Positions 3,198-35,797 of a stretch of 35,797 nt of DNA are shown here, in pieces. The stretch is from positions 1-35,797 of the forward strand of contig JAPLHV010000008.1 in assembly GCA_026389455.1 (NCBI GenBank). The letters are read 5' to 3'. This DNA is from Coprothermobacterota bacterium. Its GTDB lineage: Bacteria > Caldisericota > JANLFM01. Both the position numbers and the translations under genes were made by a program. The notes under the pieces were generated by a model. It had not been told where the DNA came from. It ran no database searches and saw only the letters and a program-made list of their open reading frames with translations. Numbering within the stretch: the stretch's first letter is position 1; every line of letters begins with the position of its first letter.

Positions 3198-4259
3198 CTA
3201 TCGGTTGGCCAGATGGCGAGCGATCCTGTTCGCGGCGTTGGCCCGGATGTCGAAGTAGTAGAACGGGTAGTCGTAGTTGTGGAAGATCCCCGCGGCGGTT
3301 ACGCTGTTGCCCGGATCGAGCGTTGCCGTGTCCACCGTGCTGCAGATCAACGTACCCGTGGCTGTGTCGATCGTCGCGTCAGCGACGCCGAGCACCTTCT
3401 TCGGTTGCCCCTGGGCATCGAGCACGGCGTAGCCGTTCTTGTCCAACGAGATGCTCCCCAGGCTCTGTGAAGCCGTAGCGGTCGCTTCGGTTCGCGTCCA
3501 CGTGATCGGGTTGATGACCATCGCGCCGGGCAGCACCACAGGATCAGGCATCGTGGTCGTCGGCGCAACCGTGTTGTAGGAGACGATCACCTGCGTGTCG
3601 TCAGCGTTCTCGGCGAACTTGAGCTCGCTGTTCTGCTCCAGGTACTGCGGCGTTATGGAGTACCCCGGCAGGTATGCCGCGATCATGCGCTTGTAGACCT
3701 CGGGGTTCTTCTTCATATAGTCGGCCATCAGGTTGACCATGATGTTGGAGCCTTGCGAGTGGCCCGCGAGGATAAAAGGCCGCCCTTTATTCAGGTGTTT
3801 GATGTAGTAGTCGAATGCTGAGAGCGCATCCGTCGTCGGCTCGCCTCCGACTATCGGTTCCTGCTCCGCGTACATCATTGAGACAATCGTCGCCTGCCGG
3901 TAGTACGGCGCGTAGATGTTCGCGAGTGGCGAGAACGCCGTCGCGGTCCTGGAGAAGGCGGCCTTGGCGCCGCTGCGCATCTGCGCATTGTCCGCCGAGC
4001 AGACGACCGGGGCGCTGGGGTCGGACGGCATATACGCGGTCGGATAGAGGTAGAAGACGTCTACCGGCTTAGAGGCGTCGCTCGACGATGGCTGCGACAG
4101 CCAATTAGACGCGTCGGCGTAGTCGGGGGCGGGGGCACTGGCCGTTTCGGACGCGCCGGTCGACGGTTTCTGGCCGGCGCCGCTCCCGCAACCGGTGACG
4201 AGCGCGACCCCGCAGGGCGCCACGGCCAACCCGACTGCGATACCTGATCTCCTGGTCAT
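3198..4259 (-). CDS. DUF3089-like alpha/beta-hydrolase lipoprotein
   Basis: MTRRSGIAVGLAVAPCGVALVTGCGSG lipobox-like leader; PVDVFYLYPTAY and FILAGHSQGSNIM nucleophile elbow. ATG at 4259 chosen over the upstream ORF start. Confidence 0.72.
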   Translation of the reverse strand: MTRRSGIAVGLAVAPCGVALVTGCGSGAGQKPSTGASETASAPAPDYADASNWLSQPSSSDASKPVDVFYLYPTAYMPSDPSAPVVCSADNAQMRSGAKAAFSRTATAFSPLANIYAPYYRQATIVSMMYAEQEPIVGGEPTTDALSAFDYYIKHLNKGRPFILAGHSQGSNIMVNLMADYMKKNPEVYKRMIAAYLPGYSITPQYLEQNSELKFAENADDTQVIVSYNTVAPTTTMPDPVVLPGAMVINPITWTRTEATATASQSLGSISLDKNGYAVLDAQGQPKKVLGVADATIDTATGTLICSTVDTATLDPGNSVTAAGIFHNYDYPFYYFDIRANAANRIARHLANR

Positions 4260-4548
4260 TGCGTGTGGCCTCCTCATGCCGTCCCGGTGCCTTTCGAGGT
4301 TCCGGGCCACTCGTCTAGTTCGCCATGAACGGCGGATTCCTGCCGATGGAACCGTCGCTTCGCTGTGCATCGCGGCGGCCATGTGGTGAGCCCGTGCGGG
4401 TCAGGGCCTTGCCGAGGAAGCCGACACGGCGCTCGCATCCTGCGACTCTACGCCTCCACCGCCGGGAAGTCAAACAGCGAATGGCGTCGAAATAGTTGGG
4501 CAACGTCTAGTAATACTTTGTTAGATCAGCAAAGGTTCCTTCTTCTGC

Positions 4549-4882
4549 ATGGCGAACCAGACCGGTGGAAGCGGTCGGCGTTCGAAGGAGGGGAACATGC
4601 TGAAAGACCCGGACACTGAGGCGTCGACGGCGAAGGCGCGGGAGCATCTGATCGCCTTTGTGGAGGAGATGGTAGCGGGCATGGCGCACGTCCGCCAGCG
4701 CACCAACGCGCTCCTCTACGTGCGCGGGCTGATCGAGCACGGGGGCCGCAAGAGCCTGCAGCCTACTCTCTTGCGCCTGGGAGAGGACGCCGCCTGCTAT
4801 AAGTTCGTGCAGCAGTTCCTGGCCGACTCGCCCTGGGACGCGGATCTGCTGGTGCGCGCCTGCGCCGAGCGGGTGTCGGCCG
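4549..4882 (+). pseudogene. Truncated N-terminal fragment of an IS701-like DDE transposase
   Basis: YVRGLIEHGGRKSLQPTLLRLGEDAACYKFVQQFLADSPWD resembles the IS701-family N-terminus; similarity ends where the oppositely oriented IS3-like remnant begins. Confidence 0.5.
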
Positions 4883-4884
4883 CG

Positions 4885-5381
4885 ACCGCGGGGCCTTGGG
4901 CGCGGGGGGCCGGCGGTGACGATACATGGTGGCGGGGGAGACCCCCAGCGCCCGGCAGGCGGTGCGCAGGGGAACCAGCACCCTGAGATCCTCCACGGCC
5001 TCTTCGATCATGGCTTGGTAGGATCGGGCTTGGTCGCGCCCCTGGGCTCGAACACTTCGCCCAAAAGCGCACAGACGTTTCCCTGGGCCTCGATCACCCG
5101 ACGGGCCAGGGCAAGCTCCGACTCGGTGCGGGTGAGCCTCCCGCGCAGCTCCGCCATCTCCGAGAGGAGGGGGGGTCGGCCGGTTTGCGGCCCCGGGGGC
5201 GGGAGAGGGCCTCACGCGTACCTTCGTCGCGCTGACGCCTCCAGACGGAGAGGTGCGAGGAGTAGAGGCCCTCCCGGCGCAGGAGCGCGCCGATCTCGCC
5301 GGGGCGGGAGAGCCCGTCGGCCTCGCGCAGGATGCGCAGCTTGTACGCGCTGCTGAAGCGGCGCCGGTAGGCGCGCTTCAT
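4885..5381 (-). mobile_element. IS3-like insertion sequence remnant (orfA plus truncated orfB)
   Basis: MKRAYRRRFSSAYKLRILREADGLSRPGEIGALLRREGLYSSHLSVWRRQRDEG (orfA HTH); after a frame change LLSEMAELRGRLTRTESELALARRVIEAQGNVCALL; then VPLRTACRALGVSPATMYRHRR (orfB start), truncated. Confidence 0.6.
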
Positions 5382-5419
5382 GAGTTCCGGGATCGGGACT
5401 GCTCCGGCGGCGTCCGCGG

Positions 5420-5516
5420 AGGGCCCGTTCCCTTCGATGCGCACCAAGAGGTAAGCGGAGACGACGATGGGAAAGCCGAAATTGGCGATCATGGTGAGGA
5501 TGTCTTCCATGATCAA
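5420..5516 (-). pseudogene. YvrJ-family small membrane protein, 3' end fused to the IS3 remnant
   Basis: MEDILTMIANFGFPIVVSAYLLVRIEG matches the YvrJ pattern; the frame then runs into IS3 orfA. Confidence 0.5.
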
Positions 5517-10273: not shown

Positions 10274-10338
10274 GACTCGCTGCCGCGGGCTGTAGACTCG
10301 CTGCCGCGGGCTGAGTAGACTCGCTTCCGCGGGCTATA
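10274..10338 (-). repeat. 18-bp-family variant array (CCGCGG variant), 3 units
   Basis: gactcgctgccgcgggctgta / gactcgctgccgcgggctgagta / gactcgcttccgcgggctata; unit starts spaced 21 and 23 bp. Confidence 0.7.
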
Positions 10339-10446
10339 GAATAACGATCGCCTTGGCAAAAAAGTCGCTGGGGCAGATAATCTTCAGGAAAGGCAGAATT
10401 TGTTCACCTGAGTGTAACCAAACTAACCAGACAAAGGGAGGAAGAG

Positions 10447-11142: not shown

Positions 11143-11225
11143 AGAGCCAGCGGCAGGATGTCCTGTGACGGCTCTCTCTCATCCCTAGTGGGTAAGATCG
11201 CCTGAGGGGAAAAGAGGAGCGCTGC

Positions 11226-11384
11226 GTGGAAGAGCTGGAAGCTTTATCCGAGAGAACATTGCGATTTGACCCGCCTTGGAGGATCACAAGGATAAAGTTC
11301 CTTGAAGGCAAAGAGATCATCAAGAGTTTCATCGACTTTCCCGAGGGCGCCTTTTCTGTCGTCCCCCTTGCGACAAGTCCGTGA
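11226..11384 (+). pseudogene. Possible ISL3-like transposase N-terminal remnant
   Basis: Manual translation from GTG 11226: VEELEALSERTLRFDPPWRITRIKFLEGKEIIKSFIDFPEGAFSVVPLATSP*; resembles ISL3 N-termini (PW.V..V.F....L.I.IDFP.G). Confidence 0.35.
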
Positions 11385-11433
11385 AAGCCTACGACACGAC
11401 AGAGAAGAATTGGCGGAAGCGTGATAGAACACC

Positions 11434-11565
11434 CTGCCGGGGGCTATCGAGCTGCCGGGGGCTATCGAGCTGCCGGGGGCTATCGAGCTGCCGGGGGCTA
11501 TCGAGCTGCCGGGGGCTATCGAGCTGCCGGGGGCTATCGAGCTGCCGGGGGCTATCGAGCTGCCG
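11434..11565 (-). repeat. 18-bp tandem array, 7 full units plus partial, with CACC terminal motif
   Basis: gaacac + (CTGCCGGGGGCTATCGAG)x7 starting at 11434, 11452, 11470, 11488, 11506, 11524, 11542; partial at 11560. Confidence 0.97.
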
Positions 11566-11701
11566 ATGGAGTCGAACTGACCCGGCTCTGTCGGCTGCTC
11601 CGGCTCAGAGTCGCGACAAAGGCCGAAAGAGACATCGCCCATCAATTGGGGTCGTAACCTATCTCTTGCTATCCTCAACGGGTATACTGCAATTGATCAG
11701 C

Positions 11702-11772
11702 ATGCGGCAGCATGAAAGCCACCGGCAGCATAACAGCCACCGGCAGGTAAATAGCTCCCGGCAGGGAGTGCT
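11702..11772 (+). repeat. Degenerate 18-bp array immediately upstream of the ROK gene
   Basis: gccaccggcag (11718), gccaccggcag (11736), gctcccggcag (11754): 18-bp spacing; ends ggcagggagtgctg directly before ATG 11774. Confidence 0.85.
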
Positions 11773-17307: not shown

Positions 17308-19129
17308 CCCACTTGGGGGCAGATTTGAAATCTGTCCCCAGGCGGATCGAAGCATCCAGCGCTTTGGAGAGGAAGTATCCGCAGAGAGTTTGGAATGGGC
17401 GCTAGGTTCGCGGCCCGGTTGCCAACTGGAAGAAGAGCGGCATGGACTGTTGCAGGCGATCGATACGACCGACTGGGCGCTCTTCAAGGCCGGCTTGACT
17501 TGTCTCTTCATCGACTGGGGAGAGCATGCGGAACTGCAACTAGACAGCCCCCGGCAGCTAGACAGCGCCCGGCAACTTGACAGCCCCCGGCAGGGTGGTA
17601 CGGTCCAGGGAGAAAGGCAAGGCCTACCCCTGGTCTGGCGTGAAAAACTGGATCATCCTCCTTCATGGCCTTCTCCCTTTCCCGGCACAGAGATCTTTGC
17701 GCTCTTGCGCCTTTTGCTGGAGGGGGAGGAAGTCGCCCCTTGCTGGCAAGCCCATCTTGATGAGCGAACCTACCTACAGACGGTTCCATCCCAGAAGCCC
17801 CTTTCTCTGCAGTTTCGTTCCTTTCAAGCCCTGGCTGCAGAGCCATTAGCCCCCGGCAACTGTACAGCCCCCGGCAGGGCGTCCTGGAAAACCTTCTGCG
17901 CGTTTCGACTGTACGGCAGCGGAGAGGGCGTTGACCTATTAGGGATTGCCGATGATCTGAGCAAAGCTCTTGGCTGGGAAGCGGAGGAGACCGGGCTGCT
18001 GCTTTTCGCTGAAGAGAAAATGGCCTTCTCTGCGCCGCACCCGCGCTGGGATGAGTTGGTTGGCAATAGACAGCCCCTGGCAGGTAGACAGCCCCCGGCA
18101 GGGCGTTCAATACAGGTTCAACTTTTCGACCTCGCCTATGACGTGCTCCGCCAACAAACGGGGCAGCTTCTTTGGCACGAGCCTGGCGCCAGGCTGGGGA
18201 TCGACCCGGAACGCCTCCACGATATGCGTGTGGCCACGCGACGGTTGCGAGCGGCCTTGCGTCTTTTCCAGGAAGTCCTCCCCGCACGAACGGCGACCCA
18301 TCTCCGTAGCGAGTTGAAATGGTTGGGGGCATCCTTGGGGAGGGTGAGGGATCTCGACGTCTATTTGGAACGGGTAGGTGAATTGGGAGCGGCTTTGTCG
18401 CCGGAGAGCAGACCATGGCTGGAGCAGTATCTCAGGCAACTCATCGCAGAGCGGGAGAAGCGGCGAGAGGCGCTCTTGCGCGCGCTCCGCACTCTGCGCT
18501 TCCAGGAGCTTAAAGAGAGCCTCGTGGAAATGATGGAGAAGCGGCCCAAGAGTTGGCAGGACACCCTGCCGGGAGCTGTCCAGTTGCCGGGAGCTGTCCA
18601 GTTGCCGGGAGCTGCCCAGTTGCAGCGGGCGGCGCCGGCCGCCGCTGTTTTGCTGAAGCCTCTTTGGAAGAGGTTTCTCAAGGCAGGAAGAGCGCTTCGA
18701 CTAGATTCTCCCGATGCGGAGATGCATGCTCTGCGGATTCGAGCCAAACGGCTGCGTTACGCCTTGGAGTTCTTCCAGGGCTATTTAAGCATGGAAGGAC
18801 GAGTAAATTCACCTTACCCTGGGGAGGCGGCCAAACGCTGGATTGCCAGGCTGCGGAAGCTGCAGGACATCCTCGGTGAACATCAGGATCTGGTCGTCGG
18901 CCAGGAAACCATCCGCACTCTCTTGCAAAAGGCGGGCAGCGAGCAGGAAGGGCGACAGTACTCTTTCGTCCTTGGTCAGGTTTCCGCTCTCCACGCCCAA
19001 AGGGCTTTGGAGTGCCGAAGGGCTTTTCTCGAAGCATGGCAGGAGCTGGATCGCAAGAGAATTAGACAGCCCCTGGAAAGAGCGCTGAAGAAAGCCGGGA
19101 AACGGAAAGCCGGCCGGCGGTCGCCTTAA
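17288..19129 (+). CDS. CHAD domain protein with probable degenerate CYTH-like N-terminal half
   Basis: GTG start at 17288 in frame with the ORF. CHAD hallmarks LHDMRVATRRLRAALRLF, LGRVRDLDVYL, LHALRIRAKRLRYALEFF-type helix, LQDILGEHQDLVV. Confidence 0.85.
   Translation: MSEESDNPLGGRFEICPQADRSIQRFGEEVSAESLEWALGSRPGCQLEEERHGLLQAIDTTDWALFKAGLTCLFIDWGEHAELQLDSPRQLDSARQLDSPRQGGTVQGERQGLPLVWREKLDHPPSWPSPFPGTEIFALLRLLLEGEEVAPCWQAHLDERTYLQTVPSQKPLSLQFRSFQALAAEPLAPGNCTAPGRASWKTFCAFRLYGSGEGVDLLGIADDLSKALGWEAEETGLLLFAEEKMAFSAPHPRWDELVGNRQPLAGRQPPAGRSIQVQLFDLAYDVLRQQTGQLLWHEPGARLGIDPERLHDMRVATRRLRAALRLFQEVLPARTATHLRSELKWLGASLGRVRDLDVYLERVGELGAALSPESRPWLEQYLRQLIAEREKRREALLRALRTLRFQELKESLVEMMEKRPKSWQDTLPGAVQLPGAVQLPGAAQLQRAAPAAAVLLKPLWKRFLKAGRALRLDSPDAEMHALRIRAKRLRYALEFFQGYLSMEGRVNSPYPGEAAKRWIARLRKLQDILGEHQDLVVGQETIRTLLQKAGSEQEGRQYSFVLGQVSALHAQRALECRRAFLEAWQELDRKRIRQPLERALKKAGKRKAGRRSP
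17314..17340. repeat. REP-like palindrome at the 5' end of the CHAD gene
   Basis: TGGGGGCAGATTT-G-AAATCTGTCCCCA; 12 of 13 arm positions complementary. Confidence 0.85.
17540..17593 (+). repeat. 18-bp array in CHAD CDS, 3 units (reads LDSPRQ)
   Basis: ctagacagcccccggcag|ctagacagcgcccggcaa|cttgacagcccccggcag then ggtggta. Confidence 0.95.
17843..17879 (+). repeat. 18-bp array in CHAD CDS, 2 units (reads LAPGNCTAPGRA)
   Basis: gcccccggcaactgtacagcccccggcag; core spacing 18 bp (17849, 17867); terminal ggcgtcctgg. Confidence 0.9.
18066..18101 (+). repeat. 18-bp array in CHAD CDS, 2 units (reads RQPLAGRQPPAG)
   Basis: atagacagcccctggcag|gtagacagcccccggcag then ggcgttc. Confidence 0.9.
18566..18637 (-). 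repeat. 18-bp array, inverted orientation, in CHAD CDS (reads LPGAVQ)
   Basis: caggacac + ctgccgggagctgtccag|ttgccgggagctgtccag|ttgccgggagctgcccag|ttgcagcgggc. Confidence 0.95.
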
Positions 19130-19132
19130 ATC

Positions 19133-19650
19133 GGTTCCTTCTCATTTCAAGCGAGTAACCTACCAGCCTGCGGCAGTATGATTCTTCCACGACAATGCGA
19201 TCTTCCCCAAAGAGAACCCTTCAAGCGGTTTAACTAGATAGCCCCCGGCAGGGTGTTCTGAGCTGAATAGCCCCCGGCAGGGTGTTCCGAGCTGAATAGC
19301 CCCCGGCAGGGTGTTCTGAGCTGAATAGCCCCCGGCAGGGTGTTCCGAGCTGAATAGCCCCCGGCAGGGTGTTCCGAGCTGAATAGCCCCCGGCAGGGTG
19401 TTCCGAGCTGAATAGCCCCCGGCAGGGTGTTCTGTGTCGAAGTGGGGCAGATAGCCGCAAGAGAACCACCCTCGAAGTGGCTGCTCCACAGAGCCGTTGG
19501 TTTCCGTCACTTCACTGCAGATGCCGCACTGGGGCGCCACGGTCCCAGGAAAGCCGACGATCTCAGGAGCGGTCTCAATCCCAAGGACGGTCACGATCCC
19601 TGATTTGCCGCACTGGGGCGCCGCAGTCCCAGGAAAGCCGATGATCGCAG
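19133..19650. repeat. Composite repeated element, copy A (left flank, array, right flank)
   Basis: Left GGTTCCTTCTCATTTCAAGCGAGTAACCTACCAGCCTGCGGC (19133-19174) and right tgtgtcgaagtggggcagatag...gccgcactggggcgcc...cccaggaaagccga are both conserved in copy B. Confidence 0.85.
19236..19435 (+). repeat. 29-bp tandem array, 7 units
   Basis: agctgaatagcccccggcagggtgttcYg; ccccc cores at 19242, 19271, 19300, 19329, 19358, 19387, 19416. Confidence 0.97.
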
Positions 19651-19702
19651 AGACCTTCTTTACCCTCAGACTGCCTTGCTCACTCCAATTAAAAATGACG
19701 CT

Positions 19703-25002: not shown

Positions 25003-25501
25003 ACAGCTTGAGGCTACACAGCCTGCTACTGCAGAGCTTGAGGTTACACAGCCCGCGGCAGCTACACAGCCCCCGGCAGCTAGACAGCCCCCGGCAACTA
25101 CACAGCCCGCGGCAACTAGACAGCCCGCGGCAACTAGACAGCCCGCGGCAGCGAGTTCTGTTGAATTAGAGACGATCGTTGATGCATTCGTGGAGTTGAT
25201 GCTGGAAAAGCAAGCCGAGGAGGTGGTGACGCTGGATCTGCGTGGGATTTCTGCCTTTGCCGACAGTTTTATGATCGCCACCACTGAGACCCCTCGCCAG
25301 GCCAAGGCGTTGTTGGATGATCTCTACGGGAAAGCCAAAGAACTAGGGTTGCCGGTGCGCGGCGTGGAAGGCGCCGAGGACGGGCGCTGGATTCTCTTCG
25401 ACCTCAATGAAGTTGTAATCCATCTCTTCACTCCCCGCTTCCGGCAGTTCTACGACCTGGAATCGTTCTGGGGTATGGCGGCTAAAAGGGTTTATCTATG
25501 A
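24995..25501 (+). CDS. rsfS: Ribosomal silencing factor RsfS, with repeat-encoded N-terminal extension
   Basis: VVTLDLRGISAFADSFMIATTETPRQAKALLDDL...EGAEDGRWILFDLNEVVIHLFTPRFRQFYDLESFW. Confidence 0.93.
   Translation: MAKQLEATQPATAELEVTQPAAATQPPAARQPPATTQPAATRQPAATRQPAAASSVELETIVDAFVELMLEKQAEEVVTLDLRGISAFADSFMIATTETPRQAKALLDDLYGKAKELGLPVRGVEGAEDGRWILFDLNEVVIHLFTPRFRQFYDLESFWGMAAKRVYL
25014..25151 (+). repeat. 18-bp array in the 5' end of rsfS (reads TQPPAA)
   Basis: ctacacagcctgctactg ... ttacacagcccgcggcag|ctacacagcccccggcag|ctagacagcccccggcaa|ctacacagcccgcggcaa|ctagacagcccgcggcaa|ctagacagcccgcggcag. Confidence 0.95.
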
Positions 25502-28167
25502 TGAAGGAGAGGGGCAAGCTGGTCTTAGTCGACGGGAACAGCCTGCTCTACCGCGCCTATTTCGCCCTGCCCAGTCTGGTCACGCGAGAAGGGCAGGCCA
25601 CGGGGGGGGTGTACGGCCTTGCCAACATCCTGCTCAAACTGATCGAGGAGGAGAAACCCGATTTCGTGGCCTTCGCCTTCGACCTGAAAGAGCCAACCTT
25701 CCGGCATCGGGAGTACGCCGACTATAAGGCCAACCGCCCGAAGACTCCCTCTGATCTGGTGGAGCAGATGAGCTTGGCGCACGAGCTGGCCGACGCCTTC
25801 GGCATCCCGGTCTTCGAGTGCCCAGGCTTTGAGGCGGACGACGTCATCGCCAGCTTGGCCGTTCGCGCAGCCGGAGAGGGGAAAGAGGTTCTGATCCTCA
25901 CCGGCGACCTCGATACACTGCAATTGGTCAGCGAGCAGATCACCGTGCTTCACCCGCGACGCGGCCTCAGCGAAACGATTCGTTTCCATCCGGATGAGGT
26001 GCGCAGTCGCTTTCACCTGGACCCCCAACAGATGGTGGACTACAAATCACTGGTCGGAGACCCGTCGGACAACCTGCCGCGCATTTCAGGGATGGGCGAG
26101 AAGACAGCGCAGGATCTGCTGGCTCATTTCAACTCACTGCAAGGGATCTTCCAACACCTGGAAGAAGTGCCGGAGAAGATCCGCTGTACATTGACGGAGA
26201 ACCGAATCCAGGCCGAGCGGAATCGTTCCCTGACGCAGTTGGTCCTGGATCTGCCGTTGGAGGTGGATTGGGAGCGGTTGCGTTTCAGTGGCCTGGACCC
26301 GGAGTTGGGGAGAGCTCTCTTCACGCGCTTGGAGTTCAAGTCCCTGTTGGACAAATTACTTCCGCCGCTGGAAGTCCCAACAGGCGAGCTTTCCATCCAC
26401 CCCTGGGAAGAATGGCAGAACACGCTGCCGCGAGCTGTCGAGCTGCCGGGGGCTATCGAGTTGCCGCAGGCTGTCGAGTTGCCGGCCTGCGCTTTTCTGG
26501 CCATTCCCGGCGAGCCCCAAGCCTTGGCGTGGGCTCGGCAGGGTGAAGCCTGGAGCGGCGCTTTCCCTACTGTCTCCTCTCTACCGGACCTCTTCCAAGT
26601 AGAAGAGGCGATCCCTTCCAGCGTTTCCTCCTTCTTGAGCGATCCCCACCAGGAGAAGTGGACGCACGACTGGAAGGAGGCCTGGAAGGTTTTCCAGCGA
26701 ATAGGCTTGGAAGTGCGTGGGGTTACCTTCGACACCATGTTGGCTTCCTATCTGGCCCAATCGGCGAGAACCTCGCACGGCTTGATGCAGGTCTTCCTGG
26801 AGAAAGCGAAGCGCCCGCTGCCGGAGGAACCCGGAGCATCACCTTCCACCAGAGCGGCCTGGGGCGCCTGGGCCATCTTCCAGTTGAAGCCGTTATTGGA
26901 GGAGGATCTCCGCCGACTCGGATTGGAAGAATTGTTTCATACCCTGGAGATGCCGCTGGCGGTTGTCTTGGCCGAGATGGAGATGGACGGGATCCGCGTT
27001 TCACGGCGCGTCCTGGAAGAGCTGCGCCGGGAGGCTGAAGGGCGGCTGTCCGCTCTCTCTAATGAGATCTTCTCCCTCTGCGGCTGCCAGTTCAACATCT
27101 CCTCGCCCAAGCAACTGGCCTTCGTCCTCTTCGAGAAGCTCCAGTTGGCCAAGGGGCGCCGCATCAAGACCGGTTTCTCCACCGACGCAGCCACCCTGGA
27201 GAGCCTGGCCTCAGCCCACCCGGCAGTGCCCAAGGTGTTGGAACACCGAGAGCTGTTCAAGTTGAAGACCACCTACATCGACGCCCTCCCCGGACTGCTG
27301 GATGATGCAAGTCGTGTGCATACCACATACGTGCAGACCTCCACCGCTACCGGGCGGATCTCTTCGATCAACCCGAACTTGCAGAACATCCCCATCCGCT
27401 CTCCTTTCGGACAACAGATCCGACGCGCCTTCCTGGCCTCCTCACCGGACCATCTACTGCTGTCGGCGGACTACTCCCAAATCGAGTTGCGCGTGCTCGC
27501 CCACCTCAGCGAGGATCCCGACCTGCTGGAGAATTTCAAGCGGGGGGGCGATATTCACACCGACACTGCAACCCATCTCTTCCGCGTCTTGCCCGCGGAT
27601 GTGACCAAAGAGATGCGGAGGCGGGCCAAGGCGGTCAATTTCGGGATCATCTATGGGATGAGCTCGTTTGGCCTCTCCCAAGCCATTGCCGTGCCGGTGG
27701 AGGAAGCGCAAGTCTACATCGAGGCTTACTTTTCGGGCCACGAGAAGGTTCGCGCTTACCTGGAAGGAGTTCTAGCCGAGGGAAGAGAGCAAGGCTTCGT
27801 CTCCACCCTGCTCGGACGCAAGCGTTTCTTGCCCGACCTTGCTTCGCGAAACCGCAAGTTATCCCAAGCTTCCGAACGGATGGCGCTGAACGCTCCGATC
27901 CAGGGCTCCGCTGCCGACATCCTCAAGTTGGCCATGCGCGATCTGCATGGTCTGCTGAAAGAACGAAAGCTGCGCAGCCGGATGGTCTTGACGGTTCACG
28001 ACGAGTTGGTCTTGGACTGTCCCAAGGAGGAGCTGAGCGAGGCGGCTGAACTGGTGCGGCAAGCCATGGAGCAGGCCTTTCCGCTGCTGGCGCCGCTGGT
28101 GGTGGAGATGAAAGCAGGACCGAACTGGTTCGAGATGGAGGGCCTGTGCCCGAGCTGCCCGAAGTAG
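25498..28167 (+). CDS. polA: DNA polymerase I
   Basis: LVLVDGNSLLYRAYFALP (5'-nuclease), TGRISSINPNLQNIPIR, SADYSQIELRVLAHLSEDPDLL, RRRAKAVNFGIIYGMSSFGL, VLTVHDELVLDCP. Confidence 0.98.
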   Translation: MMKERGKLVLVDGNSLLYRAYFALPSLVTREGQATGGVYGLANILLKLIEEEKPDFVAFAFDLKEPTFRHREYADYKANRPKTPSDLVEQMSLAHELADAFGIPVFECPGFEADDVIASLAVRAAGEGKEVLILTGDLDTLQLVSEQITVLHPRRGLSETIRFHPDEVRSRFHLDPQQMVDYKSLVGDPSDNLPRISGMGEKTAQDLLAHFNSLQGIFQHLEEVPEKIRCTLTENRIQAERNRSLTQLVLDLPLEVDWERLRFSGLDPELGRALFTRLEFKSLLDKLLPPLEVPTGELSIHPWEEWQNTLPRAVELPGAIELPQAVELPACAFLAIPGEPQALAWARQGEAWSGAFPTVSSLPDLFQVEEAIPSSVSSFLSDPHQEKWTHDWKEAWKVFQRIGLEVRGVTFDTMLASYLAQSARTSHGLMQVFLEKAKRPLPEEPGASPSTRAAWGAWAIFQLKPLLEEDLRRLGLEELFHTLEMPLAVVLAEMEMDGIRVSRRVLEELRREAEGRLSALSNEIFSLCGCQFNISSPKQLAFVLFEKLQLAKGRRIKTGFSTDAATLESLASAHPAVPKVLEHRELFKLKTTYIDALPGLLDDASRVHTTYVQTSTATGRISSINPNLQNIPIRSPFGQQIRRAFLASSPDHLLLSADYSQIELRVLAHLSEDPDLLENFKRGGDIHTDTATHLFRVLPADVTKEMRRRAKAVNFGIIYGMSSFGLSQAIAVPVEEAQVYIEAYFSGHEKVRAYLEGVLAEGREQGFVSTLLGRKRFLPDLASRNRKLSQASERMALNAPIQGSAADILKLAMRDLHGLLKERKLRSRMVLTVHDELVLDCPKEELSEAAELVRQAMEQAFPLLAPLVVEMKAGPNWFEMEGLCPSCPK
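26425..26486 (-). repeat. 18-bp array inside polA (reads LPGAIE)
   Basis: cagaacacg + ctgccgcgagctgtcgag|ctgccgggggctatcgag|ttgccgcaggctgtcgag|ttgccgg. Confidence 0.95.
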
Positions 28168-28964: not shown

Positions 28965-29560
28965 GGGTCATCGGCCTGACCGGTGGGATCGCCTCCGGCA
29001 AGAGCTTGGTCGCTTCTTTGCTGCGTGCTTTTGGCGCCGACGTGCTCGATTCCGACGCCATCGTCCACGATTTGCTGCGGCGAGGGAAGCGAACCCAGGA
29101 GGAGATCCGCCGACTCTTCGGTGAGAGCGTCATGCAGGGAGGAACGGTGGACCGCGCGGCTCTAGGACGCCTGGTCTTTGCCGACCCGGCCAAGCGTCGC
29201 CAATTGGAAGCCCTTCTGCACCCGCAAGTGAAGCGAATCTTGACCCGCCAGTTGCACAACCTAGCCCAGGATGAGAAGCCGGTCGTCTTCATTGAAGTTC
29301 CCCTCCTCTACGAGGCCGGCTGGGCCGACTGGATGGATGAGGTCTGGCTGGTTTACGCCCCGCCGGATGTGCAGAGAGCGCGTTTGAGGGCGCGCGCAGG
29401 CTTTACCGAGCAAGAAGCGGAAAGCAGGCTGGCCGCGCAATGGCCTTGGGAGGAGAAGCGCCGGCGAGCCACCCGCGTGATCGACAACAGCGGCGACTGG
29501 CTTGCTGCCCAAGCACAGGTGGCCTCGCTCTGTCAGGAATTGTTACAGGAGGTTGGTTGA
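28961..29560 (+). CDS. coaE: Dephospho-CoA kinase
   Basis: MRVIGLTGGIASGKSLVASLL; DSDAIVHDLL; FIEVPLLYEAGW. Confidence 0.95.
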   Translation: MRVIGLTGGIASGKSLVASLLRAFGADVLDSDAIVHDLLRRGKRTQEEIRRLFGESVMQGGTVDRAALGRLVFADPAKRRQLEALLHPQVKRILTRQLHNLAQDEKPVVFIEVPLLYEAGWADWMDEVWLVYAPPDVQRARLRARAGFTEQEAESRLAAQWPWEEKRRRATRVIDNSGDWLAAQAQVASLCQELLQEVG

Positions 29561-30387
29561 TAGCCCGCGGCAGCTCGATTGCCCGCGGCAGCTCAATAGC
29601 CCGCGGCAGCGCGATTCATCTTTCCTACTCGCGCTTGGTCGCCTACCAGTCTTGCCCACACCGCTACTACCTGCAATACGTGCTGGGTTTTCGAACCCCG
29701 TTCACCGCTGCCATTAGCTTCGGCTCCAGCCTACACCTGGCCTTGCAGGATTTTCACGCCCGGATGCGGGGAACGCCGCGTCTGGAACAGTTGTTGGAGG
29801 CTTTCCTCCTGCGCTGGATCCCATACGGTTACCGTAGCCGGGAGGAGCAGGCGCGCTATTTCGAGGAAGGCTTGGACATTCTGCGCGCTTATTACTTGCG
29901 CAACCTATTCGACTTTCGGCCGGCTTGGTTGGTGGAGAAACGTTTCACGGTTTCTTTGGGGGGATTTGAGTTCGTTGGCATCGTCGACCGCCTGGACGGA
30001 CGTCCGAAACTCTATCAGGTGATTGACTACAAGACCACCCGCCACGAGGAGACCCTCAATTCCCTGCAACTGCCGCTCTACTCGCTCTCTTTGAAGAAGC
30101 TCTTCGGCCTGCCTCCGCAAAGTCTCTCTTATTACTTCTTGCGCGACCAGACGACAGCCGTCTGGGAGGAGAAGACCGAACGGTTGGAGGAGGCCGAGGA
30201 GGCCGTAGCCCGGGTAGGGGAGGGAGTGCTGGCCGGCCGCTTCCCTGCCACCCCCGGGCTCTCCTGCCGGCGCTGCGACTTACGGCGATCCTGCGCGCTG
30301 CGACTGCCTTCCTCTGGCGCCGCGCTCTCGTCCGGGAAACTTCCCGCCGTTAGCGATGATGCAAAAGAGGAGCGGCCAGGAAGCTGA
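29557..30387 (+). CDS. RecB-like PD-(D/E)XK family nuclease
   Basis: HLSYSRLVAYQSCPHRYYLQYVLGF; FVGIVDRLDG...YQVIDYKTTRH; C-terminal CRRCDLRRSC. TTG start at 29557 after AGGAGG. Confidence 0.85.
   Translation: MIARGSSIARGSSIARGSAIHLSYSRLVAYQSCPHRYYLQYVLGFRTPFTAAISFGSSLHLALQDFHARMRGTPRLEQLLEAFLLRWIPYGYRSREEQARYFEEGLDILRAYYLRNLFDFRPAWLVEKRFTVSLGGFEFVGIVDRLDGRPKLYQVIDYKTTRHEETLNSLQLPLYSLSLKKLFGLPPQSLSYYFLRDQTTAVWEEKTERLEEAEEAVARVGEGVLAGRFPATPGLSCRRCDLRRSCALRLPSSGAALSSGKLPAVSDDAKEERPGS
29561..29613 (+). repeat. 18-bp array immediately after the nuclease start codon (reads IARGSS)
   Basis: gcccgcggcag cores at 29563, 29581, 29599: tagcccgcggcagctcgattgcccgcggcagctcaatagcccgcggcag. Confidence 0.95.
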
Positions 30388-32344: not shown

Positions 32345-32391
32345 GCAGCTATTATGGGGACAGATTTTAAATCTGTCCCCATAATAGCTGC
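32345..32391. repeat. Perfect REP-like palindrome, 23-bp arms
   Basis: GCAGCTATTATGGGGACAGATTT-T-AAATCTGTCCCCATAATAGCTGC. Confidence 0.95.
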
Positions 32392-32443
32392 ATTATAGCC
32401 CGCAGCATCTGCTCTTTATTATACCCCCACGCTCGCGTAATAA

Positions 32444-32822
32444 GGTTCCTTTTCATTTCAAGTGGGTAACCTATCAGCCTGCGGCTAGACAGCCCCCGGC
32501 AGCTCGACAGCCCCCGGCAGCTAGACAGCCCCCGGCAGCTCGACAGCCCCCGGCAGCTAGACAGCCCCCGGCAGCTAGACAGCCCCCGGCAGGGTGTTCT
32601 GTGTCGAAGTGGGGCAGATAGCTGCGAGAGTGCCACCCCTGGGCTGGTTGCTCTCCAGAGCGGTCGGCTTCTGTCACTTCACTGCTGATGCCGCACTGGG
32701 GTGCGGCGGTCCCAGGAAAGCCGATGGTCCCAGGAACGGTCTCGGTCCCAGGAAAACCGATGGTCCCAGGAACGGTCCAGATCCCAGATTTGCCGCACTG
32801 GGGCGCCACGGTCTCAGGGGTA
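32444..32822. repeat. Composite repeated element, copy B
   Basis: Left flank GGTTCCTTTTCATTTCAAGTGGGTAACCTATCAGCCTGCGGC is 38/42 identical to copy A with only transitions; right flank also conserved. Confidence 0.85.
32485..32592 (+). repeat. 18-bp array, 6 units
   Basis: CT[A/C]GACAGCCCCCGGCAG at 32485, 32503, 32521, 32539, 32557, 32575; terminal GGTGTTCTG. Confidence 0.98.
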
Positions 32823-32850
32823 TGGTTTAATACCGGAGTGATCCTCGTAG

Positions 32851-32871
32851 GGGCGGGTTTCAAACCCGCCC
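32851..32871. repeat. Short palindrome GGGCGGGTTT-C-AAACCCGCCC
   Basis: Perfect 10-bp arms, 1-nt centre. Confidence 0.85.
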
Positions 32872-32918
32872 ACGCACGGGCTGTCTTGGCATAGTGATGC
32901 CTCATTCTCCAGGACACC

Positions 32919-32990
32919 CTGCCGGGGGCTATCGAGCTGCCGGGGGCTATCGAGCTGCCGGGGGCTATCGAGCTGCCGCAAGTTGATTTG
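32919..32990 (-). repeat. 18-bp array, inverted relative to 32485-32592
   Basis: caggacac + CTGCCGGGGGCTATCGAG x3 + ctgccgcaagttg. Confidence 0.95.
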
Positions 32991-33354
32991 TTGTCGTTAG
33001 CCTTGATAATCCCAGAGACATTGTTTCTAGACATGCTGCCGCAGGCTGTTCTGTAGACATGCTGCCACAGGCGGGGATCTGCGGCGCTAACTCACCCGGC
33101 CCCACTTCCACCTCAAAACCGGCCTCACGGAGACGGAGCCTCAATGGCCAAGACTGGAGGGGAAAGAGGCCGCCCAGGTGTCGGTTGGATGGCGGATTCG
33201 TTTTTACCAACAGAGATGAAAGTGGTTAAAAGCGTCATCAATCATGGTTTTTCAGCTTGACAAACGGGCTTCCTTATCTAGAATACGCGTGGGCGGCCAG
33301 GTTATTTCCTGTTCATGCGCTGCCCAGTCAATCAATCGATTCAAAGGAGTAGAA

Positions 33355-35543: not shown

Positions 35544-35797
35544 ATGCCAAGACAAGCAAGGCTTGATCTGCCCGGACTTCTCCAGCATGTGATGGTCCGC
35601 GGCATCGAGAAGCGAGATATCTTTCTCGATGATGCGGACCGGGAGTATTTCGTCCTGCGCTTATCCAGGCTGTTGACCGAGACCGGCGCCGAATGCCTGG
35701 CCTGGGTGCTGATGCCCAATCACTTTCACCTCCTGCTTCGTCCCAAAGAGCAAACCTTGGCCTTTCTGATGCGCCGATTGCTGACCGGTTATGCGGT
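35544..35797 (+). CDS. REP-associated tyrosine transposase (Y1_Tnp/HUH), truncated by window edge
   Basis: Manual translation MPRQARLDLPGLLQHVMVRGIEKRDIFLDDADREYFVLRLSRLLTETGAECLAWVLMPNHFHLLLRPKEQTLAFLMRRLLTGYAV; HFH metal site in PNHFHLLL. Confidence 0.88.
   Translation, partial: MPRQARLDLPGLLQHVMVRGIEKRDIFLDDADREYFVLRLSRLLTETGAECLAWVLMPNHFHLLLRPKEQTLAFLMRRLLTGYA

Follow-up and report, generated by a model that had tools for sequence, protein, structure and literature searches.

The closest described kind of element to the loci analysed here is represented by BrickBuilt and MITE464/PgRS of Porphyromonas gingivalis, which are MITEs with an internal minisatellite and IS5-like ends (PMC4596501). 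These elements and the present family are non-autonomous, possess short terminal inverted repeats and an internal tandem array, occur in many copies and show strain-variable occupancy, while BrickBuilt additionally has a non-repetitive leader and tail, as does the present family. In contrast, BrickBuilt is characterized by IS5-family ends, variable duplications and no transposase remnant, whereas ISL3 ends and remnants and 8-bp duplications were observed here. Furthermore, and unlike BrickBuilt, the array unit of the present family varies in size between copies and occurs in frame in host genes (polA, rsfS, recQ and CHAD), and REP-type palindromes are embedded in the element.

The ISL3 elements ISAtc2, ISTfe1 and ISAtc1 of Acidithiobacillus have several features in common with this family, i.e. 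the terminal pattern GG(C/T)TCTT..GTGGGTA(AGGC), the N-terminal, GVDETS and C-terminal blocks of the transposase and an 8-bp target duplication. However, the family members examined encode no intact transposase, with repeat modules taking the place of the element body. TIMEs and mosaic non-autonomous transposons (PMC4133298) are likewise transposase-less, with inverted repeats of a known family, a mosaic interior and inferred mobilization in trans; unlike the present family, TIMEs are Tn3-derived, generate 5–6-bp duplications and are usually present as a single copy. GTAG-type palindromes of the kind found in copy 2 (see below) have been described previously (PMC3733652), and GTAG/CGTC-tagged REPs and Rickettsia palindromic elements (PMC3733652, PMC10969869) resemble the present repeats in that short repeats also occur within protein-coding genes. 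Unlike these, the composite described here has its own ISL3 ends and duplications, and its r units form in-frame 18-bp arrays. MITEs carrying a minisatellite are known, and the present family works like these, differing in its ISL3 origin, the retained transposase pieces, the REP-type palindromes and the occurrence of the array unit in host genes.

Structure of the two composite loci

The DNA analysed (35,797 nt; referred to here as the window) is contig C162 of a draft genome (G000; 2.63 Mb in 263 contigs) that belongs to the same genus as Lake Pavin MAG JAPLHW, Coprothermobacterota bacterium LacPavin_0920_SED2_MAG_58_15, which is taken to be the relative G001. Two loci in the window, designated copy 1 and copy 2, are very probably members of a non-autonomous, MITE-like family of ~200–1300 bp that is derived from an ISL3 element (Table 1). 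A first-pass annotation had proposed that these loci, at 19133 and 32444, represent a dispersed element in which similar flanks surround different arrays, and this description was upheld. The left flanks are identical at 38 of 42 positions, with all four differences being transitions (E=2.5e-15), while the ~200-nt right flanks align over 219 columns with 77% identity (E=1.7e-49) and contain the motifs quoted for them. The arrays were confirmed to consist of seven 29-bp units in copy 1 and six 18-bp units in copy 2. Although both copies are real, the extents assigned to them earlier were too short, as copy 1 reaches ~19701 and copy 2 ~33072. Repeat-depth mapping against other genome loci delimited the repeated blocks at 19126–19685 and 32437–33072, and revealed a third at 11169–11598.

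The 18- and 29-bp units have a core, designated r (AGCCCCCGGCAG), in common, which in the 29-bp unit is followed by the 3' junction GGTGTTCYG. The right sub-terminal region of copy 1 aligned with the family right end over ~54 columns with a score of 73 (best of 300 shuffles, 39); this alignment reaches 19685, the final ~15 nt being degenerate. The flanks of copy 1 displayed no clear target duplication (4/8), and no right terminal repeat was found for copy 2.

Table 1. Positions of element features and r arrays in the window
Feature	Position	Strand	Remarks
Copy 1, very probably a full-length but degenerate ISL3-derived MITE	19133–19701	+	Flanked by the ends of a CHAD-domain gene and of an AarF/UbiB-like gene
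Copy 1, left terminal inverted repeat, GGTTCCTTCTCATTTCAAGCGAGTA	19133–19157	+	
Copy 1, module B (conserved internal segment)	19177–19237	+	B present in 18/34 paired elements
Copy 1, minisatellite, 29-bp units	19238–19432	+	6.7 copies, 98% matches
Copy 1, module C (conserved internal segment)	19434–19522	+	Without covariation
Copy 1, module D (two REP-type palindromes related to GCCGCACTGGGGTGCGGCGGTCCCA, plus spacers)	19523–19650	+	
Copy 1, degenerate right terminal inverted repeat	19676–19701	-	~16/26 over the terminal repeat, read by eye
Copy 2 (left end, 6 x 18-bp array, C, D, GTAG-type palindrome, inverted r array, probable ISL3 N-terminal remnant)	32444–33072	+	
Copy 2, minisatellite, 18-bp units	32484–32592	+	
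Copy 2, GTAG-type palindrome, GTAGGGGCGGGTTTCAAACCCGCCC	32847–32876	.	
Copy 2, second, inverted r array, 3.3 x 18 bp	32919–32978	-	
Copy 2, probable ISL3 transposase N-terminal remnant	32979–33029	-	Reads ..SGIIKANDNKS (cf. EGIIKAFIDF), by eye; not significant on its own in tblastn
Third piece, ISL3 transposase N-terminal/zinc-finger remnant behind right-type terminal repeat GGCTCTCTCTCATCCCTAGTGGGTAAG	11170–11432	+	tblastn E=4e-12 (N-terminus match at 11250–11425) and 3e-11
r array adjoining the third piece, 7.3 x 18 bp	11434–11565	-	
r arrays in host genes	10274–10340, 11434–11770, 17533–18623, 25045–25150, 26424–26484, 29559–29615		

Copy number, termini and target duplications

When the genome was searched for the flanks, further copies were found to be plentiful. 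The right flank yielded 76 matches, at least 43 of which were substantial, dispersed over many contigs, and the left flank yielded at least 47, these copy counts being lower bounds obtained from a scored subset of the candidates. Among 61 relatives searched, the family was detected in a single genome, the congeneric G001. Left ends start with GGTTCCTTYTCATTTCAAGTGGGTA and right ends terminate in TACCCACTCAGTTTGAGAAAGAACC, an imperfect inverted copy (the family end pair may also be written GGTTCCTTYTCATTTCAAGTGGGTA / GGTTCTTTCTCAAACTGAGTGGGTA), so that the elements are bounded by imperfect terminal inverted repeats of ~25 bp. Right ends with at most three mismatches numbered 43 in G000 and 12 in G001, compared with none for a reversed-pattern control.

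Among the loci examined, 34 left-right pairs were identified at a spacing of 197–1281 bp, a few of which have one end in common. Perfect 8-bp direct repeats were present at seven of these pairs (L004, L012, L041, L113, L122, L144 and L175), with seven of eight positions matching at three. Flank identity across all 34 pairs was shown to peak solely at a length of 8 bp, with a value of 0.544 as compared with 0.343 for shuffled flanks (maximum 0.434, 500 shuffles). ISL3 elements generate target duplications of this length, and PMC11702846 is consistent with this. The family combines three of the properties by which MITEs are recognized: a target site duplication of fixed length (8 bp), terminal inverted repeats (the imperfect ~25-bp ends) and small, dispersed copies (197–1281 bp, at least 43) without a functional transposase, no intact transposase gene having been found in the family copies read. 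The L054/L012 copy is located directly after a T run behind a G+C-rich inverted repeat, representing a terminator-like site.

The paired elements exhibit a recurrent module order, L-(r)-D'-B-r array-C-D-(r')-R, in which arrays of at least three r units were present in 18 of the 34 pairs, i.e. a tandem array of variable copy number between transposon ends, as in elements of the BrickBuilt kind. For example, the 353-bp element L175, which is flanked by the perfect duplication ATTTTTGA, displays the same r x 6-C-D layout as copy 2.

Remnants of an ISL3-family transposase

The first-pass annotation had reported no visible transposase, which is accurate for an intact gene but overlooked remnants of an ISL3-family transposase, as several copies retain its N-terminal, GVDETS and C-terminal fragments. 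When an intact ISL3 transposase encoded in this genome served as the tblastn query, fragments were detected in many copies, the best being a C-terminal fragment (58% over 50 aa, E ~1e-13 to 3e-14), alongside N-terminal and GVDETS blocks. Pfam DDE_Tnp_ISL3 (PF01610) matches were observed at several genome sites, one of them within a copy (C149:7646–7771) that has inverted ends on both sides and encodes, in order, the ISL3 N-terminus, the block HIGVDETSRVKGM and the C-terminus, with repeats in between; no copy was complete in this respect. Like this homology and the 8-bp target duplication, the terminal repeats are of the ISL3 type, resembling those of ISAtc2 and of the ISL3 elements at C1 and C58. 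The ISAtc2 end GGCTCTTCGACATTTTGAGTGGGTAAGGC resembles the family right end, and the intact ISL3 copy at C1 has the ends GGCTCCT...GTGGGTA. When the best-preserved core fragment was compared with a plasmid collection, ISAtc2, ISTfe1 and ISAtc1 were its closest relatives (54–60% over 104 aa). This core (G001:C32; L153:1283–1419) is interrupted by another tandem repeat, which reads TTDVRLRCTTDVRRRC.

An intact autonomous partner with exactly the family ends was not found, the closest core, that at G001:C32, itself being broken, and none of the ISL3 transposases of the genome is flanked on both sides by matching ends. The ISL3 gene at C145 was considered as a partner, given the perfect left end ~150 bp upstream, but this end appears to represent a fragment of a MITE next to a different ISL3 gene, and the sequence up to the contig end, which is apparently 23S rRNA, contains no matching right end. 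The C145 ISL3 gene (L150:2280–2418) ends beside the apparent 3' end of this 23S rRNA.

The terminal inverted repeats, the target duplications, the dozens of dispersed copies, the transposase remnants and the element-free site in the sister species (see below) together argue for a non-autonomous ISL3-derived MITE, one of the possibilities raised in the first-pass annotation. In this model, the family ends are ISL3-type terminal inverted repeats, and what is left of the transposase gene in the longer copies (N-terminus, the block with the first catalytic Asp, and C-terminus) is split by inserted short repeats, namely the REP-type palindromes (D and GTAG-type), the r unit expanded in tandem and the conserved segments B and C. 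The ends may be recognized in trans by an ISL3 transposase that moves the entire block, mostly into AT-rich intergenic sites, leaving 8-bp duplications, and such mobilization might still be ongoing. The flanks would persist because they represent the ends and body of the transposon, while slippage or unequal exchange would add and remove tandem units and so make the arrays differ, the units having probably expanded around the common core in two registers, of 18 and of 29 bp. In this manner, the heavily repeated genome of an uncultivated lineage would be explained by a known mechanism, in which an ISL3 element is reduced to its ends while REP-type repeats and a minisatellite have overwritten the transposase gene.

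Short repeats within the composite and alternative explanations

The D module is a REP-type palindrome, and the composite could accordingly be viewed as a cluster of REP palindromes (a BIME-like mosaic) spread by REP-associated tyrosine transposases, with the apparent ends being further repeat modules. Consistent with such a cluster, Anaerolineae and Desulfobacterales MAGs contain the D palindrome alone, devoid of ISL3 ends, GTAG-type palindromes are present within the elements and ten Y1_Tnp matches in the genome score above the Pfam cut-off. However, a mosaic of this type does not account for 8-bp target duplications at the outer ends or for internal ISL3 transposase fragments, and nine of the ten Y1_Tnp loci lack any of these repeats; with a family repeat near only one of ten loci, a RAYT was rejected as the mover. 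The REP/BIME explanation is consequently improbable and, as far as the composite is concerned, largely refuted, whereas it is not refuted for the short repeats inside it. D, the GTAG-type palindrome and r are also found outside elements, indicating that part of the mosaic could post-date transposition. Similarly, two ISL3 paralogues (91% identical) differ in that one r unit and one GTAG-type palindrome have been inserted, each in place of a few bases, which suggests that the short repeats also move or arise independently.

The presence of the whole element in Anaerolineae and Desulfobacterales was considered; the exact D-motif matches there, obtained by scanning named genomes, carry the palindrome only and thus provide no evidence for it. 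In the Anaerolineae MAG AUK315, the D palindrome GCCGCACTGGGGTGCGGCGGTCCCA is arranged in tandem at ~72–76-bp spacing without ISL3 ends (L105, L109, L114, L121, L128 and L143). A Y1_Tnp-matching (IS200-like/RAYT-like), truncated ORF is located at the contig end of the window (35544–35795). Palindromes of the GGGGACAGATTTTAAATCTGTCCCC type, encoding GTDLKSVP in proteins, constitute another REP-like family and are present at 32356–32380 and 17315–17339 of the window.

The annotation had alternatively proposed a structured RNA locus, in which case the fold of a non-coding RNA would constrain the flanks. Folding is indeed possible for segment C and the D palindromes, and an RNA consensus structure was obtained, but in RNAalifold 38 C-D copies folded no better than column shuffles (z=-0.7), compensatory changes were confined to a few cells, and neither the whole window nor copy 1 produced an Rfam match. 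Given the lack of covariation and of an Rfam match, the RNA explanation is unsupported and is considered very unlikely. A simple locus-to-locus segmental duplication, as the two similar copies in one window might suggest and as would be expected if neither further copies nor covariation existed, can practically be dismissed because further copies abound, with at least 43 dispersed copies that exhibit unrelated flanks and sharp ends.

r arrays in host genes and comparison with the sister species

In-frame r arrays were identified within or at the start of recQ, a ROK-family gene, a CHAD gene (four sites), rsfS, polA and a PD-(D/E)XK nuclease gene. The units of these host-gene arrays are 18 bp in length, except for those in recQ (21 bp), and occur in various frames and on either strand. 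At the orthologous CHAD-AarF junction of sister species G001, copy 1 is absent and only a 28-bp palindrome (GTAGGGGCGACGCATGCGTCGCCCCTAC) is present. Furthermore, the r arrays of the G001 CHAD gene are absent or reduced, and its polA array lacks 18 bp, leaving the frame intact. As both the element and the arrays differ between the sister species, both are recent on the scale of the genus.

It is conceivable, though rather doubtful, that the ISL3-derived MITE is the vehicle that moves the r minisatellite within the genome and between phyla, seeding a frame-neutral 18-bp unit into polA, rsfS and recQ. If so, a single mobile element would not only provide transposition but also serve as a source of in-frame insertions into proteins. 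Since the array unit is in frame in essential genes and differs between sister species, the entry and expansion of repeats in coding DNA are amenable to testing.

A relative in an Atribacteria MAG

A Lake Pavin-named 'Atribacteria' MAG (JAPLGF) contains, at L135:6187–6629, an intact relative of 443 bp whose inverted arms are 94 nt long (96%). The contig has a GC content of 47.5% and carries trp genes, and its TrpE-like protein had no match in G000, G001, G002 or G003. This suggests horizontal transfer, with misbinning as an alternative explanation; the former would represent cross-phylum spread of a non-autonomous element.

Finally, positions 3198–5516 of the window contain odd-looking ORFs, including a lipoprotein-like ORF of 394 aa and IS3-type transposase-like fragments, possibly reflecting a foreign insertion or an assembly chimera.
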